Shown here: positions 2,252-35,843 of the stretch, piece by piece
How the letters are laid out: each line of letters begins with the position of its first letter
How positions within the stretch are numbered: the stretch's first letter is position 1
DNA from: Segetibacter koreensis DSM 18137
Lineage (GTDB): Bacteria; Bacteroidota; Bacteroidia; Chitinophagales; Chitinophagaceae
Assembly: GCF_000374045.1 (NCBI RefSeq)
Contig: NZ_KB893326.1
Coordinates: forward strand, 53,656-89,592
Direction of reading: 5' to 3'
DNA: 35,937 nt
The notes under the pieces: model-generated
The model's database searches: none
Seen by the model: only the letters and a program-made list of their open reading frames with translations
Told to the model about the DNA's origin: nothing
Translations under genes and position numbers: made by a program

Positions 2252-2263
2252 TTATTTATAAGT

Positions 2264-2337
2264 GGGAGCACACGGGTTCGAACCGCGGACCCTCTGCTTG
2301 TAAGGCAGATGCTCTAAACCAACTGAGCTATGCTCCC
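2264..2337 (-). tRNA. tRNA-Val (anticodon TAC)
   Basis: Read on the minus strand, the 74 nt fold as a full cloverleaf. The acceptor arms are GGGAGCA and TGCTCCC. The D arm is AGCTCAGTTGGTTTAGAGC. The anticodon stem TCTGC/GCAGA holds the loop CTTACAA, which puts TAC at positions 34-36. The T arm contains GGTTCGAACCC. CCA is not encoded. The gene is flanked by its own promoter and terminator, so it looks intact and monocistronic. Phage relics lie on its 3' side, the side where integrases usually target tRNA genes. Confidence 0.96.
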
Positions 2338-15346: not shown

Positions 15347-16276
15347 CTATTCTTTTAATACTTTAACTTTAGCAGTATCGGGCAAACCATAGTTTCCTTT
15401 TATTATTATTTTGTCTGTCGGTGAAAATGACGGTTGCACAATTTCAACTTTATCGCCAGTTTCTATTCCTTTGACAACCGGTACTTTAACTGCAGTAACG
15501 GAATCAATCATTTTCATTACCCAGAAACTATTTTGGGATTCATCTGTAAGCACCGCTTCTTTTGGTAGTGACGTCGCATTGTTTTTCGCATTTTTTACAA
15601 TACGAACCCTGCCGATCAAATTTTGAGGAATGGAGGAAGGTGCATCTACCTTTATTAAAACAGCCTCTGTTTGTGAAACTGAATCGACAGCCGGCATCAC
15701 GTGAGCAACAGTCCCCTTCAAAACCGTTTTGTCGGGCAGTACAACTTCTACCGTTTTATTATTCATTAAGTACTGCCTAAGCTCGTAGGGTAGATTTAGT
15801 AAAAATCCAAAGCTTTTTGCATCACTCAATACGGCCACTTGTTCACCATCCTGCACATAATCGCCTGGTTGATGGTCTACTGCTGTTATGTATCCTGTTT
15901 GTGTTGCATGAATTTTTATTAAACCAGAGAACCGGAATGAGGAATCTAGTTCATTTATTGTGTTTCCTAATGCTTTCGCCTCCTTTGTCTGCATTATAAA
16001 AGCAAGTTGCCCTGCATGTACAAACTGTCCTAATTTAATATTTGAAGATTTAATATATCCATTTGCAGTTGCCTTTATAAAGCTGCTTTGCAGAAAGGAA
16101 GACATAGCATTTAATTCCACATATTCCTTCAAAGCTTCGTTGCTTACGTTTGTAACCGTTACCGGTGTCTGCACTTCTTCTGCAACGTTATCTTCCTCTT
16201 TTGGTTCTTCTTTGCTTTTGCAGGAACTGGCCATAAGAGTTGCTAAGCAAAACAAAATACAATAAACTCTTTTCAT
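15347..16276 (-). CDS. RND periplasmic adaptor (membrane fusion) lipoprotein
   Basis: The 309-residue protein has a type II signal with the lipidated Cys19 in LMASSCKSK, followed by a Glu-rich linker. The barrel-sandwich (lipoyl) halves lie at about 65-95 (ATANGYIKSSNIKLGQFVHAGQ) and 120-150 (ATQTGYITAVDHQPGDYVQDGE). The helical hairpin between them is very short. The beta-barrel and membrane-proximal domains follow to the C-terminus. It links the inner-membrane pump to the outer-membrane channel. It lies 93 bp after the TolC gene and 137 bp before the pump. The shortened hairpin suggests direct tip contact with its TolC partner. Confidence 0.88.
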   Translation of the reverse strand: MKRVYCILFCLATLMASSCKSKEEPKEEDNVAEEVQTPVTVTNVSNEALKEYVELNAMSSFLQSSFIKATANGYIKSSNIKLGQFVHAGQLAFIMQTKEAKALGNTINELDSSFRFSGLIKIHATQTGYITAVDHQPGDYVQDGEQVAVLSDAKSFGFLLNLPYELRQYLMNNKTVEVVLPDKTVLKGTVAHVMPAVDSVSQTEAVLIKVDAPSSIPQNLIGRVRIVKNAKNNATSLPKEAVLTDESQNSFWVMKMIDSVTAVKVPVVKGIETGDKVEIVQPSFSPTDKIIIKGNYGLPDTAKVKVLKE

Positions 16277-16369
16277 GCCTTTTTTGTTTTATGGTATAAA
16301 AGGAAGCCTGTCTACACCTTTCCAGGTTTTGCCTTTTACCCTATACCTTGTGGTTTATACTTTAGCGCT

Positions 16370-17602
16370 TCACCTGTTCCAATAATTAATCTGGTTTACT
16401 ATTCTTAACCTGTTTATATAGTTCTGGTTCAAAATATTTCTTGCGTTTATATAATTAGTAATAGCAAGTACATAATCTGATATTTTTATATCTCCTGTTT
16501 CCAACAGTTTTGCGTTTGCGCTTATTAATGTTTTTACGTACTTTATCTGCTCATTAATTGTTTTAACCAGCAGGTCACTTGCGTGCAGCTGCTGGTTGAG
16601 TTGCGCAATCTGTTGCTTATATTGGTTTAAAAAAAATAGTTTATTATTCACACGCGTTCTTTCTCTCAGGTCAACCTGGCTCAAACGGTATTTTCTCTGG
16701 TGCGCATCGTAAATGGGAACTGTAAGGCTAAGACCAAAGCTAAAACCAAAATTTCTGTACGGATTTGCGGTAAGTGTTGATATATAACCAGCATCTGTAT
16801 AAGCACCTATCCGGGGTTTATATTCATAATTAATAATCGCTTTTTCATTTGCAAGACGCATGCTGTCTGTTGCGAATCTCTGGTAAAAAACAGAATGGTA
16901 AAAATCGAACTGCGTGCTATCATTTAATGCAGGCGATTGTATTCTTTCAACAGTGGTATCAACAATTCCCGCAAGATAATTTAAAGTGAGATAATCTGTG
17001 TTGTATTGAATTTGTGCCTGCAAGTACAAAAACTGTTGCTGCTGTAGTGTTGTATAAAAGGCCAGGTAATCAGCCTGTTTATAAACACTTGACTGGGTGA
17101 GCTTTTTCAAAACCTCCTCTTCTTTTTTTAGCAGGTTATATATTTCCTGGTTAAAATCCATAATTACCAAATCGCTGTAAGCCGTTATGTATTGGTCAGT
17201 TACTGCCCTTTTTATATCCTGTTCTGAAATATGGATAGTGTCAGAAAGCGACTGACTTTGAAGGCGAATGGCGGCGAGTTGGGTTGCTACGTTATTTTGA
17301 GTTAGAAAATTACGATTAGCCTGTACTACTGCCGATATGTTTGCTCCATTGGTAATGGCTCCATCATAGCCAAAACCTTTTACAACAGGTGCATAACTAT
17401 TACTACTTATAAAATTTACCTGCGTTTTTAAAGATGCTCTTAAGATGAGGCTGTCGAGCCGATTTGACAATATCTGGTTATTAAAATCCTTTATCAAAGG
17501 GCTGTTATCTCTTGCCTGACCAATGAAAAACTCCAATGTATGACTCTGACCAAAACAGCTACAAGAAATCAAAATAATACTAACGGTTAAAAAATATTTC
17601 AT
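16370..17602 (-). CDS. TolC-family outer-membrane efflux protein
   Basis: The 410-residue protein starts with a signal peptide (MKYFLTVSIILISCSCFGQ). Two copies of the OEP pattern (long coiled helices with a beta strand pair) follow. FGFSFGLSLTVPIYDAHQRKYRLSQVD at about 285-310 is the typical beta-strand and PIYD turn, and the C-terminal helix reads LLETGDIKISDYVLAITNYINARNILNQNYI. It forms the outer-membrane exit of the tripartite pump. As the first gene of the operon, its start at 17602 is followed upstream by a 388-bp divergent spacer that must hold the promoter. Confidence 0.88.
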   Translation of the reverse strand: MKYFLTVSIILISCSCFGQSHTLEFFIGQARDNSPLIKDFNNQILSNRLDSLILRASLKTQVNFISSNSYAPVVKGFGYDGAITNGANISAVVQANRNFLTQNNVATQLAAIRLQSQSLSDTIHISEQDIKRAVTDQYITAYSDLVIMDFNQEIYNLLKKEEEVLKKLTQSSVYKQADYLAFYTTLQQQQFLYLQAQIQYNTDYLTLNYLAGIVDTTVERIQSPALNDSTQFDFYHSVFYQRFATDSMRLANEKAIINYEYKPRIGAYTDAGYISTLTANPYRNFGFSFGLSLTVPIYDAHQRKYRLSQVDLRERTRVNNKLFFLNQYKQQIAQLNQQLHASDLLVKTINEQIKYVKTLISANAKLLETGDIKISDYVLAITNYINARNILNQNYINRLRIVNQINYWNR

Positions 17603-21525: not shown

Positions 21526-22794
21526 TTAACGCTGTGTTTGATGTTTTGCGTTAAAAATAATTGTAAAGGCATGTTCATTCGTTCCGCTCGCATAGGTAAT
21601 AGTGAAATTGCTATTTTCACAAATTTGTTGAACTACTGCAAGACCTAAACCCGTGCCGGAAGAGTGATCGCCTTTTTGAAAACGGTTAAATATCTGCTTA
21701 GGGTCAAAGGTTAAAGGTGGGCCGCTATTTGATATGGTAATACTTTCAGGAGTAAGAAAACAATTGATATAACCATTGCTGTAATTGTGTTTTACAGCAT
21801 TGCTGAAAAGATTATTAAAAAGTATATCAGCTAATTCTTCATTAATATCAATAAATACCTCTGCAAGTTCAACACGTAATTTAATATTTCTTGCTGTAAT
21901 AAGTTCTTCAAACTGTTGAAGTTTCTGCTCAATCAAATTTTTAAGATCAACCTTGTTCTGCCTACTGTATTGTTCATTATTAATTTTTGTCAGCAGCAAC
22001 AAAGCCTGGTTAAGACGGGAAAGTCTTCCCGTTGCATTATAAATCGTTTGTAGTTGTTCTGCCTGCTTTTCATTCGAACTTTGGAGCAAAATATCGAGCT
22101 TTGAGTTAATGATTGCCAAGGGTGTTTGCATTTCGTGTGAAGCATTATCGGTAAATGTTTTCAACGATTCGAAGTCGCGGTTAACACGGCTCGTCATTTC
22201 TGATACTGACTTATTTAACTCGTTAAATTCATTTATTTCTGATAAGGGTAATTTCAAGACTTTCGAATGTTTTAAATCATACGCTGTAAGTTGCTGAAGT
22301 GTATAATAAAAAGGTTCCCATAATTTGCTTAACAGCAAACGATTTATCAGCCATATAATAACAAGAAGTAAAAGAAAGATTGCAGCAGTAACCAACACGA
22401 TTAATTTGACTAAGCCTTCGGCTTCTACCTGCGATTTTATTACAATAGCCTTATGTAAGACTCCTTTTACAAAAACAGGAAAAACAAGCATTCGAACAGG
22501 TTCATCTTCATCTTTTCCCGTATCCGGTACAGTAGTTACGATTTTTCTTTTCACCTTAGAAGATGGAGGCGATGGTTCAAACCTGATCTCCTGTCCTTTG
22601 TAAGCAGAAGCATTGGGCAGCGAGTTATTTTCTTTTATATATTCATGTATTTCCTGTTCTTCTACTTTCAGATCTTTGTCAATCTGCTGTATAAGTATAG
22701 AACGAATAATAAAATAATACGTAATACTGCTGACAAGTAATATTACAATGGCTGTGATGAGATTTGCGCGATTATACCTTGTTAATAATTTCAC
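21526..22794 (-). CDS. Sensor histidine kinase of an OmpR-type two-component system
   Basis: The 422-residue protein has TM1 at about 12-33, a periplasmic part to about 127 that carries a Pro/Ser/Lys-rich stretch, TM2 at about 128-150, a HAMP-like linker, and HisKA with the phosphorylated His220 in ASHEMQTPLA. The HATPase domain has N-box NLFSNAVKHN and G-box GTGLGLAVVQQI. The short periplasmic domain suggests sensing of a membrane or envelope signal. It starts 3 bp after the regulator stop, so the two are translated from one mRNA. It runs convergent to the PAP2 pair. Confidence 0.93.
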   Translation of the reverse strand: MKLLTRYNRANLITAIVILLVSSITYYFIIRSILIQQIDKDLKVEEQEIHEYIKENNSLPNASAYKGQEIRFEPSPPSSKVKRKIVTTVPDTGKDEDEPVRMLVFPVFVKGVLHKAIVIKSQVEAEGLVKLIVLVTAAIFLLLLVIIWLINRLLLSKLWEPFYYTLQQLTAYDLKHSKVLKLPLSEINEFNELNKSVSEMTSRVNRDFESLKTFTDNASHEMQTPLAIINSKLDILLQSSNEKQAEQLQTIYNATGRLSRLNQALLLLTKINNEQYSRQNKVDLKNLIEQKLQQFEELITARNIKLRVELAEVFIDINEELADILFNNLFSNAVKHNYSNGYINCFLTPESITISNSGPPLTFDPKQIFNRFQKGDHSSGTGLGLAVVQQICENSNFTITYASGTNEHAFTIIFNAKHQTQR

Positions 22795-32151: not shown

Positions 32152-33549
32152 ATGATGAAAAATAAAATAAAGCTTGTTGCCTGTGTTGTGATATTGTCAG
32201 CAACCTTTTCTTGTACAAATCGAAAGAAAATGTCAGTTGCCGCTTCCGCTCCCGGAGACACTTCAAAAAGTGTTAGCGACACTCACATCATTCCTGCTGA
32301 GTATGAGAAAATATATACCGATGTGGAGCGTACTACTTTTCAATATTTCTGGGACGGTGCTGAACCAAATAGCGGTATGGCAAGAGAGCGCTTTCATGTG
32401 GATGGTGTATATCCTGAAAATGATAAAAACATTGTAACTACAGGAGGGGGAGGGTTTGGAGTTATGGCTATATTGGTAGGTATCGAAAGAAATTTTGTAA
32501 CCCGACAACAGGGATTTGAAAGACTGCAACGAATAGTGAACTTTTTGGCAAAAGCAGATCGTTTTCATGGAGCATGGCCACATTGGATAAATGGGGAAAC
32601 AGGCAAAGTAAAACCCTTTGGTAAAAAAGATGATGGCGGAGACCTTGTTGAAACTTCTTATATGATACAGGGTTTGCTGGCTGCAAGACAGTATTTTTTA
32701 AATGGAAACGAACAGGAGAAAGCTTTGGCAGAGAAAATTAATAAACTCTGGCAGGAGGTAGATTATAACTGGTACCGCAACGGTAAGAATGTTTTGTACT
32801 GGCACTGGTCGCCCGATTATGACTGGCAGATGAATTTTCCGGTTACCGGGTACAATGAATGTCTAATTATGTATGTACTTGGTGCATCATCGCCGACACA
32901 TGGTATACCTGCAGAAGTGTACAATGAAGGCTGGGCGAAAAGCGGAAAGATAAACGGACAAACTACAAAGTATGGACATACGCTTCACTTTGTTCATAAC
33001 GATAACCCCGAATATGGCGGTCCCCTGTTTTGGGCTCATTACTCGTACCTCGGCCTTGATCCCAGGGGATTAAAAGACAAATACGCGAACTACTGGGAAG
33101 AAAATAAAAACCAGGTTCTGATAAATCATGATTGGTGCGTCGAAAATCCGAATCATTTCAAAGGTTATGGCGAGAACAGTTGGGGGCTTACTGCCAGCTA
33201 CTCTATTAATGGTTATGCTGCTCATGCTCCCGGCAAAGACCGAGATCTTGGGGTAATTTCTCCTACTGCAGCTTTATCATCCATGCCTTATACTCCTGAC
33301 TTTAGTATGCTGGCAATGAAACACTGGTACCAGGATCTGGGTGAAAAGGTTTACGGCGTCTACGGATTTTATGATGCCTTTAGTGAAACCGCCAATTGGT
33401 ATCCCAAAAGATACCTCGCAATAGACCAGGGACCTATCGTAGTAATGATGGAAAACTACAGAACAGCTTTATTATGGAACTTATTTATGAATGCTCCCGA
33501 AGTGCAGCAAGGCTTAAAAAAACTCGGATTTCAGAGTCAGCATTTCTAG
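32152..33549 (+). CDS. Glucoamylase-family protein, GH144-like (endo-beta-1,2-glucanase family)
   Basis: The 465-residue protein has a hydrophobic signal with a possible lipobox Cys21 (ATFSC). The mature part is an (alpha/alpha)6 toroid typical of Pfam Glycoamylase. Landmarks are TTFQYFWDGAEPNSGMARER at about 55-75, the Gly-rich GGGGFGVMAILVG at about 98, the GGDLVETSYMIQGLL helix near 164, PVTGYNECLIMYVLGASSP, LFWAHYSYLGLDPRG, the NSWGLTAS turn and DQGPIVVMMENYRTALLW at the end. Characterised GH144 members from Chitinophaga cleave beta-1,2-glucan, so this is the likely main enzyme of the locus. The family contains other specificities, so the substrate is inference. A REP-like repeat begins 28 bp after the stop codon. 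Confidence 0.85.
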   Translation: MMKNKIKLVACVVILSATFSCTNRKKMSVAASAPGDTSKSVSDTHIIPAEYEKIYTDVERTTFQYFWDGAEPNSGMARERFHVDGVYPENDKNIVTTGGGGFGVMAILVGIERNFVTRQQGFERLQRIVNFLAKADRFHGAWPHWINGETGKVKPFGKKDDGGDLVETSYMIQGLLAARQYFLNGNEQEKALAEKINKLWQEVDYNWYRNGKNVLYWHWSPDYDWQMNFPVTGYNECLIMYVLGASSPTHGIPAEVYNEGWAKSGKINGQTTKYGHTLHFVHNDNPEYGGPLFWAHYSYLGLDPRGLKDKYANYWEENKNQVLINHDWCVENPNHFKGYGENSWGLTASYSINGYAAHAPGKDRDLGVISPTAALSSMPYTPDFSMLAMKHWYQDLGEKVYGVYGFYDAFSETANWYPKRYLAIDQGPIVVMMENYRTALLWNLFMNAPEVQQGLKKLGFQSQHF

Positions 33550-33577
33550 CGGCGGTGCTAAAGGGAGAAACGTTCGT

Positions 33578-33599
33578 CATTGCGAGGCACGAAGCAATC
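33578..33599 (+). repeat. REP-like 22-bp repeat, left copy
   Basis: This 22-bp sequence (starting cattgcgaggcacgaagcaa) is perfectly repeated in inverse orientation at 34043-34064. Its ends ATTGC and GCAAT are complementary, so it folds on itself as REP elements do. The word resembles dispersed palindromic repeats known in many bacterial genomes, so more copies are expected elsewhere. Confidence 0.9.
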
Positions 33600-33685
33600 C
33601 CCTTCCACTTATAATCCAAGAATAATAATTGAAGAATTGCCAAGTTTGCCCAGTAAAAAAAGCAAAAAAAGAAAAAAGCGTTAAA

Positions 33686-33985
33686 ATGAAATACGCCGGA
33701 TGTATTTATATACTTACAAATAGTCATCACACTGTCCTTTATACCGGAGTTACATCGGATTTAAAGAAAAGAATATTTCAGCATCAAAATAAAGAATTCT
33801 CAAACAGCTTTACTTCAAAATACAATTGTGACAAGCTTGTTTATTATGAAAATTTCATTCAAATCGAAGAAGCAATTGCGCGAGAAAAGCAAATTAAAGC
33901 CGGAAGCAGAAAAGCAAAAGAGACTTTAATCAATAATTTCAATCCTGAATGGAATGACCTGGGAGAATTGATTAAGAATTGGTAA
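33686..33985 (+). CDS. GIY-YIG nuclease-domain protein, bracketed by REP-like repeats
   Basis: The 99-residue protein is a single GIY-YIG domain: GCIYILTN (first Tyr), VLYTGVTSDLKKRIFQH (the second Tyr-x-Gly motif and the catalytic Arg), the FTSKYNCDKLVYYE strand, and the Glu of EEAIAREKQIKAG. It ends with NPEWNDL, usual in the UPF0213-like group. The start is ATG at 33686; an in-frame TTG at 33629 would add a Lys-rich stretch not seen in the family. No HTH or other DNA-binding domain is present. Perfect inverted copies of a REP-like repeat lie 86 bp before and 57 bp after the gene, as if gene and repeats form one unit. It interrupts an otherwise enzymatic locus. A cutting enzyme for the repeat is an attractive but untested idea. 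Confidence 0.88.
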   Translation: MKYAGCIYILTNSHHTVLYTGVTSDLKKRIFQHQNKEFSNSFTSKYNCDKLVYYENFIQIEEAIAREKQIKAGSRKAKETLINNFNPEWNDLGELIKNW

Positions 33986-34011
33986 CATTTTTCGGACAAA
34001 AAGGTCTACAC

Positions 34012-34076
34012 GTCCTGTTTGATTTCTGTCTAATTTTATGGAGATTGCTTCGTGCCTCGCAATGTCGTAACAGGAC
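34012..34076. repeat. 8-bp inverted repeat framing the right REP-like copy
   Basis: GTCCTGTT at 34012-34019 and AACAGGAC at 34069-34076 are perfect complements and enclose the right repeat. It would close a long stem with the REP hairpin at its tip. The left copy has no such frame. Confidence 0.6.
34043..34064 (-). repeat. REP-like 22-bp repeat, right (inverted) copy
   Basis: This is a perfect reverse complement of 33578-33599. Together the two copies could form a 22-bp stem with a roughly 440-nt loop carrying the GIY-YIG gene. Confidence 0.9.
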
Positions 34077-34115: not shown

Positions 34116-35843
34116 ATGGATAAAACCTTCCTTGCTTTTTTTGCCATCTTCTTATCTACTGCCCATAACCTTCATGCGCAGGAAACCCAGATGAGTACCT
34201 ATTGTAATCCACTCAATCTCGATTACACTTATATGATCTATAATGCTGACAAAAATATATCATATCGCTCGGGGGCAGATCCGGCAGTGGTGAGATTTAA
34301 AGATGAATATTATATGTTTGTCACCAGGTCTTTAGGATACTGGCATTCGACCGACTTATTGAACTGGTCTTTTATAACCCCTGAGAAGTGGTACTTCCAG
34401 GGTTCTAACGCACCCGCTGCCCACAATTATAAAGACTCTGTTTTATATGTAGCAGGAGACCCGTCTGGATCAATGAGTGTTTTGTACACAGACAATCCTA
34501 AAAAGGGAGATTGGAAAGCAGTGCCTTCTATTTTAAATGATCTGCAGGATCCTGATTTGTTTATAGATGATGATGGTAAAGCGTATATGTTTTGGGGCTC
34601 ATCTAATGTGTACCCTATAAGAGCAAAAGTTTTAGATAAAAATCATCGGTTTAGTGCTTCTGATTCTACTTATCAATTGTTCGGCCTCGATATGAAGAAA
34701 CATGGCTGGGAACGTTTCGGAGAAAATCATTCTGATACCGTTCTTGGCGGTTACATGGAAGGGGCATGGTTGACTAAACACAATAATAAATACTACATGC
34801 AGTATGCTGCTCCAGGTACAGAGTTCAATGTTTATGCAGATGGTGTTTACATGAGTGACTCAGTTCTCGGTCCTTATCATTATGCACCTAATAATCCTGT
34901 TTTTTATAAACCTGGCGGATTTTCTAATGGTTCAGGTCATGGTAGCACAGTTGTTGGTCCTGCTGCGCAATACTGGCATTTTGCTTCCGCTGCTGTAAAC
35001 GTAAATGTTGGTTGGGAACGGCGAATATGTATGTATCCTGCATGGTTTGATAAAGACGGTTTAATGTATTCTAACACTTCATTTGGCGATTATCCTCATT
35101 TTGCGCCACCAGTTGCAGGAAAGATGGGACAGTTCACGGGATGGATGTTACTCTCATATAAAAAAGCGGTTAAAGCATCTTCTTTTCTTGATAAGTTCCC
35201 AGCGGAAAATATTTCAGATGAAAATGTAAAAACATTTTGGGTAGCACAAAAAAATGACGATAAACAATGGTTAGAGATTGATATGCAGAGACCTGGTAAA
35301 GTGTACGCTGTTCAGATCAATTATCATGATTATAAATCTGATTTGTATGGTCGCGTTCCTGATCTTTATCATCGCTATATTGTTGAAGGCTCAGTAGATG
35401 GCAAAAGTTGGACTACGTTAGTTGACAGAAGTAATAGTTTTAGAGATGTCCCAAATGATTACGTGGAATTAGGCACACCTTCAACAGTACGATATGTTCG
35501 TTATAAAAACATTCATGTCCCAATGTCAAATCTTTCTATTTCCGATTTTCGTGTTTTTGGAATCGGAGAAGGTAAAGCACCATCAGTAGTAAAAAATTTT
35601 TCAGTAGTTCGACAAAAAGATCCGCGTGATGCAATGATAACATGGAATGCACATCCAAATTGCCAGGGCTATAATATTCTTTGGGGAATCGCCCCTGACA
35701 AGTTGTATAACTCGTGGATGGTGTATAATAAAAACTCTTTATTGCTAAAAAGCCTTACAACGGACCAGCATTATTACTTTGCTATTGAAGCTTTTAATGA
35801 AAATGGGGTATCAGCAAGAACGAAGATTATGAGGATTGAATAA
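34116..35843 (+). CDS. Secreted GH43-family glycoside hydrolase with discoidin-like and FnIII-like modules
   Basis: The 575-residue protein has a signal peptide (ending LHAQ at 19-22). The five-bladed GH43 propeller (about 28-345) has the catalytic base Asp55 in GADPAVV, the pKa-modulating Asp145 in LQDPDLF and the acid Glu215 in MEGAWL. A F5/8 type C-like module (about 350-481, PAENISDENVKTFWVAQ to ISDFRVFG) and a short FnIII-like module (about 488-575) follow, which probably help bind glycan. GH43 enzymes mostly release arabinose or xylose, or act on galactans. Its presence beside a GH144 enzyme suggests the target glycan is substituted. The stop codon shares its last A with the first unit of the terminal repeat array. 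Confidence 0.88.
   Translation: MDKTFLAFFAIFLSTAHNLHAQETQMSTYCNPLNLDYTYMIYNADKNISYRSGADPAVVRFKDEYYMFVTRSLGYWHSTDLLNWSFITPEKWYFQGSNAPAAHNYKDSVLYVAGDPSGSMSVLYTDNPKKGDWKAVPSILNDLQDPDLFIDDDGKAYMFWGSSNVYPIRAKVLDKNHRFSASDSTYQLFGLDMKKHGWERFGENHSDTVLGGYMEGAWLTKHNNKYYMQYAAPGTEFNVYADGVYMSDSVLGPYHYAPNNPVFYKPGGFSNGSGHGSTVVGPAAQYWHFASAAVNVNVGWERRICMYPAWFDKDGLMYSNTSFGDYPHFAPPVAGKMGQFTGWMLLSYKKAVKASSFLDKFPAENISDENVKTFWVAQKNDDKQWLEIDMQRPGKVYAVQINYHDYKSDLYGRVPDLYHRYIVEGSVDGKSWTTLVDRSNSFRDVPNDYVELGTPSTVRYVRYKNIHVPMSNLSISDFRVFGIGEGKAPSVVKNFSVVRQKDPRDAMITWNAHPNCQGYNILWGIAPDKLYNSWMVYNKNSLLLKSLTTDQHYYFAIEAFNENGVSARTKIMRIE

Follow-up and report, generated by a model that had tools for sequence, protein, structure and literature searches.

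The window, meaning the whole stretch of 35,937 bases analyzed here, contains a small cassette in which a GIY-YIG nuclease gene lies between two inverted copies of a short repeat, and the cassette itself is located between two glycosidase genes (Table 1). The open reading frame (ORF) starts 86 bp after the left repeat, and the right repeat lies 57 bp past the stop codon. The preliminary description of this DNA had reported perfect reverse-complement 22-mers on the two sides of a 99-residue GIY-YIG gene. Both copies were confirmed at the same positions, and the ORF between them matched the Pfam family PF01541. The 22-bp cores sit inside arms of 37 nt that are 84% complementary, and they formed the only inverted pair of at least 16 bp within 1 kb in the entire window. 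The exact 22-mer was found only twice in the 6.10-Mb genome, both times in the cassette, while a reversed-pattern control returned no copies. An 8-bp inverted repeat that had been noted at 34012-34019 and 34069-34076 is indeed present, but its status as a feature of the cassette was not supported: such pairs occur at about 0.99 per 500 bp throughout the window, and this one was rejected as a chance occurrence. Elsewhere in the window, a tRNA gene was the sole Rfam match at the gathering score (70.8 bits), and a histidine kinase is encoded along with efflux proteins of the HlyD-like and outer-membrane types.

Table 1. Positions of the cassette components, the adjacent genes, and other features of the window.
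Feature	Positions	Strand	Details
Left repeat	33575-33599	+	Tag CGTC (33575-33578), pointing outward; core CATTGCGAGGCACGAAGCAATC (33578-33599)
GIY-YIG nuclease ORF	33686-33985	+	99 aa, ATG at 33686 to stop at 33985; PF01541, E-value 1.6e-15
Right repeat	34043-34067	-	Perfect inverted copy of the 22-bp core (34043-34064); tag CGAC, pointing outward
Left neighbor, PF10091 glucoamylase-like glycosidase	32152-33549	+	Termed GH144 in the preliminary description; used for empty-site comparison
Right neighbor, GH43 glycosidase	34116-35843	+	Used for empty-site comparison
tRNA gene	2263-2337	-	
Efflux proteins (HlyD-like, outer-membrane) and histidine kinase	15347-17602 and 21526-22794	-	

The ORF scored 57.6 bits against PF01541 (cut-off 22.6) and thus met the criterion for the GIY-YIG superfamily. 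It comprises one GIY-YIG domain, with no second domain found in Pfam, and the group I intron endonuclease model reached only 20.1 bits, below its cut-off of 56.05. The catalytic positions of the GIY-YIG domain (Y8, Y19, G21, R29, H33, E67, and N86) were invariant across 36 aligned sequences, composed of the window protein and 35 of the 80 relatives analyzed below. An AlphaFold2 model of the protein had a mean pLDDT of 95.7, and its best match among solved structures was the UPF0213 protein 1zg2, followed by Slx1 and UvrC, such that the predicted fold resembles that of the UPF0213 and UvrC GIY-YIG domains. Two other open frames of the source genome, 606 and 456 aa long, also matched PF01541. 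Additionally, a 29-residue C-terminal GIY-YIG remnant that resembles the cassette gene was found elsewhere in this genome (G000:C1:75776-75862, equivalent to L165 2077-2163), and no such repeats were found in the surrounding 4.2 kb. A profile search of the source genome for the Y1 transposase (PF01797) returned no matches, hence a resident RAYT is unlikely there. A search for relatives of the nuclease in phage records and PHROGs also gave no match. On one contig of a viral collection (L186, 2501-2767), the gene stretch is 100% identical to a chromosomal copy in L093, and it may represent host DNA in a prophage contig.

When considered alone, the window repeat is weakly palindromic, with a 5-bp stem and a 10-nt loop, and as single DNA it folded no better than shuffled sequences (z -0.30). 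A looser family, defined as CATTGCGAG-N2-20-GAAGCAATC, had 12 copies in the 6.10-Mb genome, and the reversed pattern had none. The ten copies outside the cassette were found in nine places, which by eye included six pairs with outward tags, some with a degenerate partner, and three single copies. Two of the gene-less pairs form long DNA hairpins whose folding lies well outside the range of shuffled sequences (z -8.2 and -10.5). The cassette spelling was absent elsewhere and the ten other copies carry loops unlike those of the cassette, so that there is no sign of the cassette having spread recently. With gene-less pairs and one pair that holds a gene, the repeats of the source genome resemble the REPINs around a RAYT. 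The 94% complete genome G001 of the same genus has 38 repeats but no GIY-YIG match, an observation that counts against a partnership. In G003, 94 copies were found, with dense repeat runs on the contigs C3, C6, and C11, and the closest GIY-YIG gene is located on C30.

The association between gene and repeat was analyzed in the best 80 of 321 relatives, which were picked by protein similarity alone. Half-sites of the form CATTGCGAG or AAGCAATC were found within 400 bp of the gene in 79 of these loci and on both sides in 59, whereas at 2.0-2.4 kb they were found in only six of the 57 loci long enough to be tested. When a single representative was retained for each protein cluster at 80% identity, half-sites occurred in 53 of 54 loci, including 42 with half-sites on both sides. 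The density of CATTGCGAG in the 80 loci was 4.05/kb within 250 bp of the gene versus 0.07/kb at 2-3 kb, and the reversed word did not occur within 1 kb of the gene. As controls, 71 loci of other gene families were searched for CATTGCGAG, and none contained it (30 Y1_Tnp, 22 UvrC, and 19 PF10091 loci), in comparison to 11 of 29 GIY-YIG loci of related genomes. The control loci came from related genomes, not all of which bear the repeat. In a set of 99 genomes, 14 contained both a close GIY-YIG gene and the repeat, 15 only the gene, 10 only the repeat, and 60 neither (Fisher p 6.6e-4), where the E-value limit for a close gene (1e-15) was set after the results of the search for relatives had been seen. 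Hence, this repeat spelling was missing from 15 of the 29 genomes with a close gene.

A finder independent of the stem sequence (GTCAT followed by any 5-bp hairpin) was applied to three sets of 80, 29, and 15 loci. Tagged hairpins were identified within 400 bp in 72, 22, and 11 of the loci, respectively, with a density near the gene of 3.1-3.6/kb versus 0.2-0.7/kb beyond 1 kb. The GTCAT head yielded 335 hairpins in total, compared with 63 for the unrelated head CAGAT and 2-13 for each of six permutations of the head. Over whole control loci, tagged hairpins occurred in 7 of 30 Y1, 8 of 22 UvrC, and 4 of 19 PF10091 loci (0.05-0.11/kb), compared with 26 of 29 GIY-YIG loci (1.38/kb). The preliminary description had suggested that the nuclease is an analogous partner of a REP-like repeat. 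A repeat without enrichment near GIY-YIG genes would have refuted it, but the enrichment observed there, and its absence from the control loci, lend support to this suggestion by association, while any cutting or copying of the repeat remains an inference. Fairly regularly spaced runs of repeats were also observed near the gene in the loci L054, L081, L017, and L027, with a spacing of, for example, approximately 136 bp in L054 and 95 bp in L081.

The layout of the flanking repeats varied among loci. With a strict pattern of the full repeat, 25 of the 80 loci had repeats on both sides, 32 on one side, and 23 on neither. Among the two-sided loci, ten had the outward layout seen in the window, 14 were direct, and one was inward. 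Bracketing is thus common, and the mirror-image layout is one of several rather than the rule. The two arms of a locus nonetheless resembled one another: their loops were identical in 7 of the 25 loci (shuffled mean 1.15, largest 4), and the arm-to-arm resemblance was 0.416, in contrast to 0.026 after shuffling (maximum of 0.234 in 500 shuffles of the 25 pairs).

Distant relatives of the nuclease in alphaproteobacteria, Neisseria, Aeromonas, and Planktothrix adjoin CGTC-tagged palindromes of different spellings. In the flanks of plasmid-collection records, the tagged palindromes were specific to the lineage, with GTCATTCCC in Neisseria, Aeromonas, and Photobacterium (on one side only in the latter), GTCATCCTCGGG in Sinorhizobium meliloti, two Shinella, and Neorhizobium, GTCATCCCAGGG in Rhizobium CIAT894, GTCATCCCCGC in Azospirillum, GTCACCCCGGG in Sphingobium, GTCGCCCCG in Novosphingobium, GTCATTCTGAG in Planktothrix, and GTCATCCCGAG in Spirosoma. 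From this collection, 15 of 33 records were selected to span genera, and by eye the gene is flanked on one or both sides by a tagged palindrome in 13 of these loci. The GTCAT finder had counted 11, as it missed the GTCGCCCC and GTCACCCC palindromes that bracket L192 and L194. The remaining two loci, L191 and L195, have CTCATTCCTGTG words nearby, which may correspond to the CCTC-tag variant named by Di Nocera 2013 (PMC3733652). The surroundings of the gene in this set were diverse. It lies between sufB and sufC in Azospirillum lipoferum (L193, 2483-2776), and by eye the flanks in Shinella PSBB067 (L201) read like the same sufB-sufC junction, that is, the same site in two orders. On a Planktothrix plasmid (L198, 2486-2770), it is located between an MmeI-type restriction enzyme and the DISARM gene drmA.

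A protein phylogeny provided further information on the distribution of repeat types. Of 125 loci, 87 could be typed, and the 38 without a clear repeat type were left out of the type tests. The tree was built from 98 columns, and 50 of its 84 inner branches remained open. Repeat type required 22 changes on this tree versus 26.8 when shuffled, and none of 200 shuffles was as low. The signal was pronounced for the ATTGCG type (10 changes versus 23.2), while no clustering was found on the tree for ATTTCG (4 changes versus 3.9), ATCCTG, ATCCCG, or ATTCTG. The ATTGCG type spans proteins whose records are titled Bacteroidota, Chloroflexi, Omnitrophota, Cyanobacteria, Acidobacteria, and others, but eight Bacteroidota loci that form one clade (SH-aLRT 97) lack it. 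Pairs of the same type from different host groups shared a protein identity of 59.4%, as opposed to 50.5% for pairs of different types within one group. Host groups were labeled from record titles, with Chlorobi, Ignavibacteria, and Kapabacteria counted apart, and many of the records are metagenome bins. Host group also clusters on the same tree (13 changes), and host ancestry is therefore not excluded as a cause of the clustering of repeat types. From the sequences, a partnership appears the likelier cause, though it is not the sole candidate.

The presence of the cassette was compared at equivalent sites. In 11 relatives, the region of the PF10091 orthologue contained no GIY-YIG match. In four of them, all of the same genus (G001, G003, G004, and G005), a GH43 gene with 72-75% identity adjoins the orthologue without a repeat half-site in between, five others had no GH43 match, and two had one with 40-42% identity. 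The occurrence of the gene at this site without the repeats, which would have refuted the proposal in the preliminary description, was hence seen in none of the 11, and where the flanking genes are adjacent, gene and repeats are missing together. G003 and G009 have GIY-YIG genes of their own elsewhere in the genome, and these are accompanied by repeats. While the cassette has inverted ends in the form of the 22-bp pair, neither the exact junction nor a target-site duplication could be read, as the intergenic sequences of the relatives are too diverged.

Sites in other genera were compared as well. At the fnrL/response-regulator site of aligned Sphingobium plasmids, three had the arrangement repeat-gene-repeat, two a lone palindrome, and one neither. 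A lone repeat is present in the plasmids TYG64 and TYG74 where others have the cassette, and the lone palindrome has a tag at both ends. In a further gene-less Sphingobium record outside the alignment, the annotated flanking genes are 34 bp apart. Sites that are empty of any repeat thus exist beside the lone-repeat state, which could equally be a remnant after loss. Two aligned Shinella records contain a block made up of repeat pair, gene, and repeat pair, and three others lack the entire block. The genome G016 contains two cassette copies 140 kb apart on one contig, with an identity of 92.7% over 273 bp of the gene. Their homology starts at the left tag, spans the right repeat, and runs approximately 90 bp further, and one of the two copies is decayed. 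In an Anaerolineaceae bin (L098, 1615-1887 and 3001-3273), a gene-bearing stretch of 400 bp occurs as two direct copies with 86.5% identity, 1386 bp apart. An empty site was not found in the Rhizobium tumorigenes group, where the gene is present in each of the eight records that span 80% or more of the region, and the search with Rhizobium CIAT894 gave nothing usable, since only the source record itself covers at least 80% of the query. Loci of Flavobacterium and Chryseobacterium often share neighbors by eye, and the gene looks settled there. Taken over these comparisons, gene and repeats come and go together as a unit.

In known systems, the closest parallels are the RAYT/REP "REPtrons" described in PMC8266576 and PMC3733652, in which a small nuclease gene is likewise flanked by tagged short repeats. 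According to the former, RAYT HUH enzymes have co-evolved with their REPs. The shared features include the gene-less outward pairs elsewhere in the source genome (six of nine other places, by eye) and the clustering of repeat type on the enzyme tree, such that, within the limits of the tree, the flanking repeat goes with the enzyme clade. In contrast, the cassette enzyme is of the GIY-YIG family rather than an HUH (Y1) tyrosine transposase, for which PF01797 had no match in the genome, and the cassette tag is CGTC rather than GTAG. REPs with a CGTC tag were defined by Di Nocera 2013 (PMC3733652), who stated an apparent lack of a dedicated transposase and whose Table 1 gives no transposase association for them. 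Like those described there, the window repeat has a CGTC tag (in the left copy, with CGAC in the right) and AT at the start of the stem, and the species surveyed include Sinorhizobium meliloti, Azospirillum lipoferum, and Neisseria, which carry GIY-YIG relatives bracketed by such repeats. Unlike them, it has a 5-bp stem and a 10-nt loop, compared with the stems of 8-9 bp and loops of 4-5 nt given in the same source. Pairs are common among the 12 copies of the source genome, but they are head-outward, while according to Di Nocera 2013 HH dimers predominate and TT dimers are rare. The word stem "palindrom" does not occur in the 2006 GIY-YIG survey (PMC1564403), nor GIY-YIG in RepRanger 2025 (PMC12306157), in the text of each that was searched. 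Searches for literature pairing GIY-YIG with REP, RAYT, REPIN, dRS3, or interspersed repeats, which covered mainly open-license papers, yielded none among the matches listed as judged by title and abstract start. A search with the repeat letters likewise gave no match that looked related by title among those listed.

The best explanation for these observations is that the stretch 33575-34067 is a small mobile or once-mobile cassette whose nuclease acts on its repeat as RAYTs act on GTAG REPs, and we consider this explanation probable. Its parts are held with different confidence. That enzyme and repeat are functional partners is very likely, and that the enzyme cuts the repeat is also likely, although the latter is inferred in the absence of cutting data. 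Under this explanation, a stand-alone GIY-YIG nuclease encoded between two outward copies of its own CGTC-tagged repeat would recognize that repeat, for which the basis is only the association and the way in which repeat spellings group on the protein tree. Cleavage would most likely occur at the tag or close to it, on a repeat in single-stranded form or extruded into a hairpin, and host recombination may then copy the cassette, or a short gene-less repeat pair, into another repeat or site. By analogy with REPINs and RAYTs, the cassette would be autonomous, and the head-outward pairs elsewhere would be its non-autonomous counterparts. GIY-YIG enzymes hydrolyze DNA and do not stay covalently bound to it, and a homing-like, repair-driven copying is for this reason preferred over true transposition. 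Spread by such copying is only tentatively inferred, at somewhat less than an even chance; no movement was observed. Weighing against the explanation are the varied layout of the flanking repeats, the lack of the cassette spelling elsewhere in its genome, the GIY-YIG remnant without repeats, the genomes with only the gene or only the repeat, the repeat types that do not cluster, the missing empty site in the Rhizobium tumorigenes group, the settled genes in Flavobacterium and Chryseobacterium, the homology beyond the right repeat in G016, and the poor folding of the single repeat. The layout, the unclustered types, the remnant, and the hairpins in the control loci did not alter the weight given to the explanation, since the association counts are unaffected. 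The location of the gene may depend on its own target site, as for GIY-YIG homing endonucleases of the I-TevI type, and occupied and lone-repeat states were seen at one Sphingobium site, with the direction unknown. Unlike the I-TevI type, the window ORF is one domain of 99 aa without a second Pfam domain.

Part of the evidence could also be explained by a resident host nuclease. Ssn, said to have appeared in Nature Communications in 2025, reportedly refers to GIY-YIG enzymes that have many homologues and cleave single strands of DNA at a sequence that recurs in Neisseria genomes, in work said to be centered on Neisseria and natural transformation. Ssn is similarly reported to be a stand-alone GIY-YIG enzyme with a cognate repeated sequence. 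A nuclease of this kind would cut single-stranded DNA at the repeats and tune natural transformation or genome stability, with the nearby repeats serving just as targets and the cassette being immobile. This is a real possibility, though not the one we favor. Repeats of the form GTCATTCCC..GGGAATC, a spelling that we take to be dRS3, surround the Neisseria relative (44.8% identical), with 11 tagged hairpins within 450 bp. PMC3733652 identifies the CGTC-1 repeats of Neisseria with dRS3 repeats. The shared neighbors in Flavobacterium would also fit a resident gene, but the block-wise presence and absence of gene and repeats and the second copy within G016 need some mobility.

The dependence might instead run in the other direction, where a RAYT or another enzyme moves the repeats, and these offer a selfish GIY-YIG gene harmless targets for insertion. 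The lone repeats of TYG64 and TYG74, the loci with the gene inside repeat arrays, and G001 with its repeats and no gene are compatible with such a safe harbor. We consider it unlikely, as there is no Y1 transposase match in the source genome and no CATTGCGAG in the 30 Y1 loci of related genomes, and repeat spelling clusters on the GIY-YIG tree. It is similarly hard to credit, and rather less probable, that the repeats merely regulate a small nuclease gene, whether as terminators, mRNA hairpins, or an autoregulatory operator, and are unrelated to mobility: their positions before and after the ORF would suit this role, and REPs are mostly downstream of coding regions according to PMC3733652, yet further copies of these repeats are scattered over the genome, mostly as outward pairs by eye. 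A chance neighborhood of a common gene and a common repeat, for which the 12 genomic copies of the family might speak, can practically be dismissed; it is ruled out by the enrichment at 79 of 80 loci, the counts of tagged hairpins, the deduplicated set, and the 71 controls. UvrC loci, despite the GIY-YIG domain that they share with the window protein, were among those without CATTGCGAG.

In favoring a cassette with an enzyme acting on its own repeat, the analysis suggests a partner for a widespread class of bacterial repeats without a known one. Whether the CGTC-tagged REP superfamily is served throughout the bacterial phyla by dedicated enzymes from this GIY-YIG clade, as a second REP mobility system of independent origin in which a hydrolytic nuclease and repair take the place of the RAYT HUH transposase, is evenly balanced in our judgment. 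If Ssn covers this clade, the pairing of enzyme and repeat is known, and the novelty would be confined to the link to CGTC REPs, the layout of the cassette, and the evidence from presence and absence. The pairing names a testable enzyme and candidate repeats for several clades, such that binding, cutting, and cross-specificity are directly assayable. If the pairing holds, an enzyme of 99 aa whose target can be read would also be of use as a DNA tool, and dispersed short repeats would have arisen at least twice around unrelated nucleases.
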